From Mesostigma viride (taxonomy: Eukaryota; Streptophyta; Mesostigmatophyceae; Mesostigmatales; Mesostigmataceae), in contig RPFO01000050.1 of the NCBI GenBank assembly GCA_009746045.1, positions 1,116,381 through 1,180,380 of the forward strand: a stretch of 64,000 nt of DNA, given 5' to 3'. Position numbers and translations under genes: made by a program. Shown piece after piece: positions 33,461 through 64,000 of the stretch; position 1 is the first letter of the stretch; each line of letters starts with the position of its first letter. Below the pieces are notes generated by a model. It made no database searches and was not told the DNA's origin. It saw only the letters and a program-made list of their open reading frames with translations.

Positions 33461-36400
33461 GTACGACGAAGAAACCGTCTTCACCGATTCCCTGGGCAGG
33501 CCCGAACTGTCGCGGGTTCATTAGGTCATTTCATCATCAGCACCATGGAGCTCCAGGCACTAGGGCCACCACATAAGACCATTTTCGACACGCATTCCGT
33601 GATTGCCCTGGCATTTCCCGTCAAGTGCCCAGTATTCGGAGACTTTTGTTCATGCATAATTTGTGTTCATGGCATAGCTTTATTTAGCCGTGCTGAGGGC
33701 CTGGGACCATAGGCGCATGCATCAAGATGGCGAGGCAGCAATGCCTGTCCTTGCAGTGCCAGCTGCCCCTTTCCTACAGCATCATGGCGTGCAGCATGAT
33801 CTCAGTCCATTCTGATGAATTCACGGATGTCAGAAACCACGTGGTAGCACCGCCCACACCATTCGCACCCTCCTGATGCACCATCTGAAAACTGCCTGTC
33901 CTATTGTGGTCGCTTGGCAAGGGCGCCCCCCCGCCCTTCTCGTTTGCGCGATCGTTGAAGGCCTCTGCAATCCCGACTAGTTCATTCACCCGAATAATTT
34001 TTGGGACTTGCGGAGCTGGGCGAAAAATGCCTACAAAACCAGACAAAGAAAAGAAGACACCTAGAAATTAGAAAAACATAACGATGCCACGAAGGGGATG
34101 GAAGCCCGTTCAGGTCAAGAAGTGCGAGATGAAATCATTGTCCACCACCTCCCCCTCTTCATCATATTTTTCGTGGCACCTGGTGGCGGAATGCAGCAAT
34201 CGGTTTTATAGTTCGAAGCGCTGGCAAGGGGCAGGGTTCACCCCTGCTAGGGGTTAGGCCCTCGGCTGCCTATGGCCACATCTGCTCTTCCCAGGGTCCT
34301 TCCCGCCTGGGAGCACGGTTTTGAAAAGGAATCGATTCTAGCCATGGTTTTCGGGGAACATGCACTGCGAATGGGGTGCCTTGTCGTCGATCTGCCCACG
34401 CCCATGCCTTCGAATCTGCTCAGCACACTGCTTCTCAGCTACACATATGTCACCTGCCAGGGCCATGGTTTGCTTACATGCATACACACCTGCCAAATGT
34501 CTCCAAACATTCCTGCTATATTCTCAACCGGCCCGCACCACACACACTGCTCACTGTCCAGATGCCTATATGCCCTAAGCTCTGGTTGCCCTGTGCCCAG
34601 CCATATTTTTACCTATCCATTACCCATCCATTGCCCATCCAGTTGCCCATCCATTACCCATCCATTTTCCCATCCATCGCCCATCCATTTGCCCATCCAT
34701 TACCCATCCATTACCCATCCATTTGCCCATCCATCACCCATCCATTTGCCCATCAATTTGCCCATCTATTACCCATCCATTTGCCCCTCCATTGCCCATC
34801 CATTTGCCCATCCATTTGCCCATCCATTTGCCCATCCGTTTGCCCATCTATCACCCATCCATTTGCCCATCCATTTGCCCATCCATTTGCCCATCCATTA
34901 ACCCATCCATTTGCCCATCCATTTGCCCATCCATTTGCCCATCCATTTGCCCATCCATTTGCCCATCCATTTGCCCATCCATTTGCCCATCCATTTGCCC
35001 ATCCATTTGCCCACCCATTTGCCCACCCATTTGCCCATCCATCACCCATCCATTTGCCCATCCATCACCCATCCATTTGCCCATCCATCACCCATCCATT
35101 TGCCCATCCATTTGCCCATACATTTGCACATCCATTAACCCATCCATTTGCCCATCCATTTGCCCATCCATTACCCATCCATTTGCCCATCCATTTGCCC
35201 ATCCATTAACCCATCCAATCGCACATCCATTAACCCATCCATTTGCCCATCAATTTGCCCCTCCATTTGCCCATCCATCACCCATCCATTTGCCCATCCA
35301 TTACCCATCCATTTGCCCATCCATCACCCATCCATTTGCCCATCCATTTGCCCCTCCATTGCCCATCCATTTGCCCATCCATTTGCCCATCCATTTGCCC
35401 ATCCATTGCTGATCCATTTACCCATCCGTTTGCCCATCCATTTGCCAATCCATCAGCCCATCCATTTACCCATCCATTTGCCCATCCATCGCCCATCCAT
35501 TTGCCCATCCATTACCCATCCATTTGCCCATCCATTGCTGATCCATTTGCCTTATCCATTACCCATCCATTTGCCCATCCATTTGCCCACCATTTGCCCA
35601 TCCATTTGCCCATCCATCGCCCATCCATTTGCCCATCCATTACCCATCCATTTGCCCATCCATTACCCATCCATTTGCCCATCCATTGCTCATCCATTTG
35701 CTCATCCATTACCCATCCATTAAGCCATCCATTTGCCCATCCATTTGCCCATCCATTACCCATCCATTACCCATCCATTACCCATCCATTACCCATCCAT
35801 TACCCATCCATTACCCATCCATGTGCCTGATCCATTACCCACCCATTACCCACCCATTACCCACCCATTACCCACCCATTACCCACCCATTACCCATCCA
35901 TTTGCCCATCCATTACCCATCCATTTGCTTCTAGAAAAACGCCCAGCTTCCTGGCATCACCTTTGGCTGCTCTTGCCCCTGCCCTTGCTCCTATACCCTC
36001 GGGGTTTAAATAATTAATAAAAGGCTGTACATTGATACGTCGTAAACATCACACAGCCCTAACCGCATAAGCCCAATAGAGAACATAGAGCCCTGCTAGT
36101 GCATCATAAACAAATACACATTGGATCCCGTCACCAGGGAGGAACCCATGCTTGGTGCTTAGATATACCTGTTGGGTGTATACCTGACTTTGCTGCCATC
36201 CTTTTTCCCATGGTGCTGTGATTTCTAATTAACCCCACCGCGCCCCCCCCCCCCCCCCCCCTGTCCCCTCATCACTCTTTCTTTCCCTCCCCCTCGTTGC
36301 CCCCTCGCTGCCCCCTCACTTGCCCCTCAACCCCCCAGGCACGTCCCTGGCGTCGGAGCACGCGCTTCTGGACCAGCCGTGTGCGCTCACCAGCTTCTTC

Positions 36401-62712: not shown

Positions 62713-64000
62713 GTACGTGCGGCCACCGCTATTTGTTTATTGAGAATGATAAGTTACCACCGTTCTACATATGCGTACTGTTGTAAGCCTTGTAACACCG
62801 TCTCGCAGCTCATCGTGCGTGGCTCATAGACCCATGCTAAGGAACTCCCTGGCATATTGTATTATTTATTACGCTTGTATCCCAGCTCATAGTTCGTGTG
62901 GCCCTTGGCCCACTAGTCCCCCGACCGACCCCAATGCCATACTACGGCTTCGCTAGGCACCCCCCTAAAAGCGCTGGAAGGGGATGGACGTGCGATAATT
63001 TGTACCAGCACTGTTTTGTGCCGCCCGTCTCGCGGCTCATCGTACGTGTTTAAAACCAATCACTAATGCATGACATTGTGCAAGTATGCCATACAACCGC
63101 ACATTGCCCGCAGCATCATGCTACAAACACGCACATGTATCTTATGCCCATCCCGCAGCTCATTGTATGTGCATGACATCCATGGCGTATTATATGCACT
63201 GTAATGTATGTATGCCAGATATGCCGCAGTGGCCACGCCCCCATGCCAAGTAGCGCAGCCATCACCCGCTGCCCGACCCTAATGGCCATAGCAGTGTAGC
63301 ACTGGCCAACTGCCCCCCCCCCTCCTCACATCGGCTTACATAAGCCACCACCCAACCCAATGAATTGTGACGTGTTAGGTGACCCCTTGCACCAGGGCCA
63401 CGCCAGAACCCTTGTCATTGTGGTTAATTTTGTTTTTTTTTCCGTACACTTGTGTGGGTCATCTTGTCGTTTTCATGCATAGTATTTTCATGCATTCGAA
63501 ACCGGATCCCTGGCACACAGCCCCATTACTGACACGGGAAATGACTGACGTTGTAGTAGAGCCTTCCACCCCCGTGCCATGTGGCATACAAGGCCCCTCT
63601 GACTACCCCGCCATGTCACTTAGTGATCTCCCTGCCCAACATGCCCTTACCGCCTTGTTGTCACCCCGCCAAGCATCCCATGCAACCTAGTGCCCCTTGA
63701 AGTGGGGTCAGTTCTGCCGGCATCGCGTAAGCAGCCAAGAAAAATTCATCGGGTCCGGCCCCTCCCTCGCCCGCCTGTCAGTTCTCTCGGGTAGCGGGGA
63801 CTTGCCAACATGTAGCTGCATAGCACGCTCTCCTCCCTTGGCTGCATGGTCAGTTCCCCGTTGCACCGGCCCCTTATTCCTTCCCCCTGTGCGCTGGCCG
63901 GCCGTATCCCCCTTTGCCCGAGCACTTCACGTCGCCATTTTGGAGCACCGAAACTCCTCGTTGGCCCCCTCTGAGAATGCCACTTGCCAAATGGCATCGG
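62713..64000. other. BBS1 intron 18 (partial)
   Basis: No exon resembling the remaining GAE part was found, so the terminal exon(s) lie to the right. Apart from the echoes only short frames are present. Confidence 0.6.
62797..63175 (+). repeat. Four echoes of exon 18 donor junction
   Basis: GTCTCGCAGCTCATCGTGCG (62800), TCCCAGCTCATAGTTCGTGT (62880), CGTCTCGCGGCTCATCGTAC (63027) and ATCCCGCAGCTCATTGTATG (63150) copy CGTCTCGCAGCTCATC|GTACG (62697). All keep a GT at the donor position. Confidence 0.92.

Follow-up and report, generated by a model that had tools for sequence, protein, structure and literature searches.

Long introns are commonly attributed to transposons, and Zhuo et al. in 2007 are said to have derived human introns from tandem arrays. 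Tandem duplication is an established source of new introns, as described in four reports (PMC4974935, PMC2812944, PMC3443670, PMC2891723). The potato RdRp gene carries a tandem duplication over an intron/exon boundary in which the acceptor signals were copied, a single case that made a new intron (PMC4974935). In the tandem genomic duplication model, extra splice-site sequence arises and is kept out of the messenger RNA by splicing, and a duplicated exonic AGGT becomes both ends of a new intron (PMC3443670). Human tandem repeats overlapping exon-intron boundaries also alter gene structure, belong to recent segmental duplications and gave many altered transcripts (PMC2812944). Herein, we analyzed a 64,000-bp stretch of Mesostigma viride DNA (the window; G000:C446:1116381-1180380, from a genome of 440 Mb in 2243 contigs), whose BBS1 gene contains, within its introns, diverged direct copies of its own exon edges, here called echoes. 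Like the described systems, these copies cross exon boundaries and bring extra splice-site sequence that splicing apparently keeps out; but in Mesostigma many copies lengthen existing introns, no new intron was seen, the two ends of an intron are dissimilar, and the echoes range from fresh to well drifted and lie in conserved genes. We consider it likely that short tandem duplication recurs throughout the introns and is tolerated there and across junctions, and that the echoes are its overlap with exon edges frozen by selection.

The Mesostigma viride NIES-296 genome, described as 442 Mb in 2363 scaffolds with a mean intron of 1142 bp and with 30.1% of its intron space taken up by repeats, likewise has long, repeat-rich introns; the available text of that report leaves junction duplications or short local duplications unmentioned as a source of the length (PMC6947507). 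Among the best-ranked matches of a literature search covering titles and the beginnings of abstracts, with most subscription journals outside it, junction-spanning duplication as a genome-wide means of intron lengthening was not found. Single junction-spanning duplications are known, and the scale and the frozen-template effect described below look new.

The 18 BBS1 exons in the window (33214-62712) were joined by introns that were all GT-AG, with the reading frame kept. The 543-amino-acid product was 100% identical over the full query to EukProt jgi/Mesvir1/21512 (P0001) and matched PDB chains named Bardet-Biedl syndrome 1 protein (6xt9, E 6.7e-127). For each junction, the remainder of its own intron was searched with a 45-bp query (25 exon and 20 intron bases) at a threshold score of at least 13.5. 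Arrays of period up to 14 and a 44-bp satellite were masked in nearly all junction and interior analyses; the first BBS1 junction test was unmasked and used shuffles, and self-BLAST used the dust filter. Own-intron echoes were detected at 11 of 35 BBS1 edges, compared with 0/35 for inverted matches and 0/350 for introns of other gene regions. The acceptor of exon 15 gave no junction-spanning match in the search that yielded the other BBS1 echoes; self-BLAST aligned 58551-58660 with 59176-59296 at 68%, and a further match lay inside exon 15 (echo 58626-58660). With this acceptor included, 12 of 35 edges and 10 of 18 exons were echoed. When 45166-64000 was compared with itself by BLAST, 24 direct matches lay less than 2500 bp apart, 50 were found at any distance, and none was inverted. 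The original prediction, made from the bare sequence, had named ten echoed edges (exons 2, 7, 8, 14, 17, and 18, and both sides of exons 3 and 15), and all ten were recovered. It had also suspected exons 9 and 12, of which the exon 12 acceptor was echoed and the exon 9 donor was marginal (13.5). Its statement that most edges are copied was too strong, whereas its statement that copies keep to the source side of the junction held, since no BBS1 edge was echoed in the intron across its exon (0/34). The features are as follows.

33214..62712, + strand, BBS1 exons 1-18 and introns; the gene runs on beyond the window end
36339..36415, + strand, exon 2, donor edge with one echo
36500..36537, + strand, exon 2 donor echo (-34 to +4), GT kept, junction-spanning match
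45391..45412, + strand, exon 3 acceptor echo, junction-spanning match
45458..45508, + strand, exon 3 acceptor echo, junction-spanning match
45579..45601, + strand, exon 3 acceptor echo, junction-spanning match
45692..45802, + strand, exon 3, echoes from both edges
45872..45903, + strand, exon 3 donor echo, junction-spanning match
46317..46359, + strand, exon 3 donor echo, junction-spanning match
51027..51080, + strand, exon 7, donor edge with four echoes in steps of ~86 bp
51146..51430, + strand, the four exon 7 donor echoes (51146-51215, 51223-51310, 51314-51400, 51401-51430)
52159..52262, + strand, exon 8 acceptor echo, AG changed to AA, junction-spanning match
52264..52367, + strand, exon 8 acceptor echo, AG kept, 96% identity, junction-spanning match
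52429..52506, + strand, exon 8, acceptor edge with two echoes in 105-bp steps
53328..53353, + strand, exon 9 donor echo, marginal (13.5), junction-spanning match
55861..55925, + strand, exon 12 acceptor echo, junction-spanning match
58093..58122, + strand, exon 14 acceptor echo, junction-spanning match
58551..58660, + strand, diverged duplicate of 59176-59296, the acceptor region of exon 15, self-BLAST, inner part 58626-58660
59544..59590, + strand, exon 15 donor echo, junction-spanning match
62037..62065, + strand, exon 17 donor echo, GT changed to GC, junction-spanning match
62468..62497, + strand, exon 17 donor echo, marginal, junction-spanning match
62798..62821, + strand, exon 18 donor echo, junction-spanning match
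62877..62903, + strand, exon 18 donor echo, junction-spanning match
63022..63048, + strand, exon 18 donor echo, junction-spanning match
63146..63172, + strand, exon 18 donor echo, junction-spanning match

Further genes were located with the chaperonin (PF00118), adaptin (PF01602), and kinesin (PF00225) profiles. The exact-junction set comprised 73 introns with 145 junctions from 26 gene regions, BBS1 included, all from conserved genes; 55 of the introns lay outside BBS1, 29 exon pairs were rejected for a profile gap, the lack of a splice pair or ambiguity, and the region C887:347898 was left out as a duplicate. Own-intron echoes were found at 39 of the 145 junctions and inverted ones at none, while junction windows matched introns of other regions in 3 of 1450 comparisons and, of 482 exonic windows lying 25 bp or more away from any edge, 2 had an echo. 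With 120-bp queries, inverted matches came near the threshold at a BBS1 intron 10 donor (14.5) and at an intron donor of contig C1568 (14.0). At least one echoed junction was present in 17 of the 26 regions, and outside BBS1 28 of 110 junctions were echoed, indicating a feature of the sampled genome rather than of BBS1. Echoes were thus far more frequent than in permuted pairs and far from confined to one gene, so that neither of the two outcomes named by the original prediction as refuting it appeared in the sample, although the genome-wide habit that had been proposed is supported here for sampled conserved genes, not for all genes. An introner family, which would place similar elements in unrelated genes, was also considered and set aside on the 3 of 1450 matches to introns of other regions.

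A preceding survey took profile-match ends as approximate edges in 58 chaperonin and adaptin loci, some mutually overlapping, after exclusion of one locus without introns (L009) and one duplicate (L011, of L010). Direct echoes were found at 23 of 116 edges (19.8%), on the outward side in 22 of the 23, and one inverted echo was found. Permuted pairs gave 3/116, one of them a perfect 45-base match, and these three are taken as overlapping loci of one gene. Echoes were also present at 16.3% of 1104 points in intron interiors (0.7% inverted) and at 0.5% of 200 in exon interiors.

If an echo is free to drift while its exon is under selection, the mismatch rate should be close to mu at the first two codon positions and close to 2 mu at the third. 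The mismatches between echoes and exons were 56/544, 59/558, and 107/549 at positions 1, 2, and 3, respectively (10.3, 10.6, and 19.5%; Fisher 8e-7), so that the first two pooled gave 10.4% versus 19.5% at the third. Such a near doubling is expected if changes accumulate along the whole echo but chiefly at third positions in the exon. Several echoes from one junction are not independent; with the best match per junction (n = 34), the counts were 23/283, 29/288, and 46/281 (p 0.003), and outside BBS1 they were 37/367, 44/378, and 66/369. Since both intron-side copies drift, homology should fade beyond the splice site. When alignments were anchored on the exon only, 54 of 60 echoes extended to the junction. 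The donor column match was then 0.85 at +1+2, 0.70 at +3..+6, 0.51 at +7..+12, and 0.42 at +13..+30, and the acceptor column match was 0.86 at the AG, 0.83 at -3, 0.43 at -4..-12, and 0.41 at -13..-30. The intron flank was included in the copy, with the match of 0.42 at +13..+30 and with recent cases spanning the whole 60-bp intron part of the query. A frozen exon together with a fading flank makes the blocks appear to cross exon edge and splice site and to keep the amino-acid sense of the exon. That echoes retain this sense, as had been noticed, is thus a real pattern which is explained by constraint on the exon, with mismatches gathered at position 3, and no coding role of the echo is needed.

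The original prediction had placed the process at splice junctions. However, of 1307 points in intron interiors tested on one side, 154 also carried local direct duplications, indicating that junctions are not the site of a separate process, and a junction-only mechanism was rejected on these controls, which were drawn from the same introns as the junctions. In BBS1 introns, 19-21% of windows were matched by a direct copy no more than 1.5 kb away on one side or the other, and 1% by an inverted one; at 1-33.1 kb of the window, the values were 9.7% and 3.4%. A position profile with period up to 14 masked showed matches scoring at least 30 in 2-6% of windows from the exon edge into the deep intron and none in windows beginning 55-70 bp inside the exon, while matches scoring at least 13.5 peaked at 21-27% where the window contained the exon edge. 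The sample contains direct, local copies in their own introns in many gene regions, nearly absent from deep exon, with the codon-position pattern and flank decay given above. For such a pattern, short tandem duplication would be frequent in the non-coding DNA of Mesostigma, with units mostly of ~30-130 bp, and selection would purge duplications lying entirely within exons. Intronic or junction-spanning ones would be tolerated as long as splicing used the exon-adjacent copy, and every event would lengthen the intron by one unit. Selection would then hold the copy next to the exon while the intronic one drifted, which would leave a junction duplication recognizable for longer than an intron-only one.

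The spacing of the copies was consistent with this scheme. The nearest echo of 36 junctions lay at a median separation of 99.5 bp, with 18 of the 36 within 80-120 bp. Single-unit series were found at junctions (71/142/213/284; 86/172/258/343; 88/171/254; 87/172/256), and such multiples of a unit are the mark of tandem duplication; many older copies were no longer recognizable as full units. Identity ranged from 1.00 (a C2189 copy, 70 bp away) to 0.74, so the process looks to be continuing. When the distances of the farthest spanning echo per junction were summed, they came to 10,018 of 72,553 intron bases (13.8%) in 28 of 73 introns, an estimate that assumes tandem duplication. The earlier proposal of short tandem duplication across junctions, with one copy retained, the others drifting, and introns enlarged, was supported. 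In plants, the repair of staggered nicks can produce short tandem duplications; the molecular cause in Mesostigma is one that we infer, and the near-perfect two-copy arrays examined for microhomology at the duplication ends numbered only 8.

Several results weigh against intron-wide duplication with passively frozen edges as the full account. Among 55 BBS1 windows of 45 bp lying wholly in exon, whatever their distance from its edges, 21.8% were echoed at a score of at least 13.5 (1.8% at 24 or more), a figure explained by the shortness of the exons, which makes most such windows adjoin an edge. Matches scoring at least 13.5 were found in 13-18% of windows in the first 100 bp of the intron versus 5-10% beyond 250 bp, though this sequence is not frozen. 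Within the same introns, junctions exceeded the interior expectation by 30 vs 10.2 at score 13.5, 13 vs 4.7 at 22, and 6 vs 3.7 at 30, and the roughly threefold excess at moderate scores is larger than the ~1.5-2-fold expected from frozen exons alone. In a heavier masking run that also removed minisatellites (period up to 60, at least 2.8 copies), matches scoring at least 26 were counted at 15/272 edges, 15/370 flanks, and 14/578 deeper intron points; a mild junction-proximal excess is thus possible, although these figures come from overlapping windows and few events with short-unit arrays taken out. Junction separations also exceeded interior ones (median 99.5 vs 67.5 bp; interior copies at 138/1185 points). 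Donors were echoed more often than acceptors (27/73 vs 12/72, p 0.008), which plain neutrality does not predict; an upstream acceptor copy would be reached first by the spliceosome and may therefore be less tolerated. The junction excess, the strong edge and flank matches after minisatellite masking, and the surplus of donors would all fit hotspots at which breaks tied to transcription or splicing and lying close to exon-intron boundaries, mainly donors, seed duplications on top of the frozen-exon effect. We nevertheless regard such hotspots as unlikely, since, when simple repeats alone were masked, the strongest matches were about as dense at the edge as in the deep intron, the 6 vs 3.7 at score 30 was reached by 625 of 5000 resamplings, and the heavier masking strips short-unit arrays, which are commoner in intron interiors. 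A broader proposal, that intron length owes much to continuing genome-wide short tandem duplication moderately focused on junctions, donors above all, with frozen edges as its growth rings, is offered tentatively and with considerable doubt.

Whether echoes are selected as alternative, backup, or decoy splice sites was judged from their dinucleotides. These were kept in 57 of 65 junction-spanning echoes, and spanning alignments (66/70 dinucleotide columns, 32/36 dinucleotides intact) suggested preservation by selection; this disappeared under exon-only anchoring, and the apparent preservation arose because the alignments had been selected for spanning the junction. In exon-anchored alignments, GT was kept in 27 of 36 echoes and AG in 13 of 18, close to the level predicted from codon positions 1 and 2, and the dinucleotide column match of 0.85-0.86 showed no excess over the 0.896 of those positions. 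Spanning alignments also seemed to be short of matches at donor +3..+6 (49/77, vs 101/144 when exon-anchored), which may partly be an edge effect. Echo donors were weaker than the real donor in 22 of 36 cases, equal in 10, and stronger in 4. No sign of splice-site maintenance was seen in exon-anchored alignments, so that selection of this kind is very improbable, and the echoes are presumably neutral and ignored by splicing. Intron gain by AGGT duplication, a route which the original prediction had cited, is established elsewhere (PMC3443670) and would also leave exon-like sequence with splice sites inside introns. It is scarcely credible here: the donor end of an intron resembled its own acceptor end in 0/72 cases at a score of at least 12 and in 1/72 at 10 or more vs 1.2% of permuted pairs, indicating that existing introns were lengthened and not gained, and the unit separating the copies contains intron flank. 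Chance likeness of splice consensus or low-complexity sequence might be suggested by the abundance of simple repeats in introns; shuffles and permuted introns (0/145 inverted, 3/1450 permuted) refuted it, and its probability is practically nil.

As the exon copy is nearly constant, divergence can be used to put echoes in order, and in this green alga, which branches close to the root of the land-plant lineage, the introns appear to have kept a history of their growth that can still be read in part. Intron growth, the tolerance of donors and acceptors, and the fate of decoy sites can be measured from one genome in this way. Gene finding is also affected, as many introns contain, tens to hundreds of bases from their ends, sequence that resembles an exon and carries an intact splice site.

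Large arrays were observed in BBS1 as well. The 44-bp satellite, with ~191 copies at 36763-45165 of the window, occupied most of intron 2 (9276 bp), and further arrays were a 12-bp unit in intron 1, ATACT x54 in intron 13, CCTTGCTTGC in intron 14, and GA x53 in intron 15. The CCTTGCTTGC array sat between both copies of the exon 15 acceptor region (58551-59296), as if a simple repeat had expanded within a junction duplication. An Rfam search of the window gave 0 matches at the gathering score. At 17422-22670, a zinc-knuckle (PF00098) frame overlapped the start of a 1344-amino-acid open frame that had no Pfam match at E 0.001; the arrangement is reminiscent of a retroelement, but no polymerase domain was found there. 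In the wider sample, the chaperonin exons of L010 and L011 (C1641, C887) had an identical matched protein and the kinesin exons of G000:C2:6330541-6334132 and G000:C622:17695-21288 had identical scores, each pair possibly representing unmerged haplotypes or recent segmental duplications. The chaperonin locus without introns, L009 (G000:C2011:1347332-1348840), was a single unbroken Cpn60 frame (profile 1-489, open frame of 554 amino acids) despite the intron-rich genome, and may represent bacterial DNA or a gene of organellar type.

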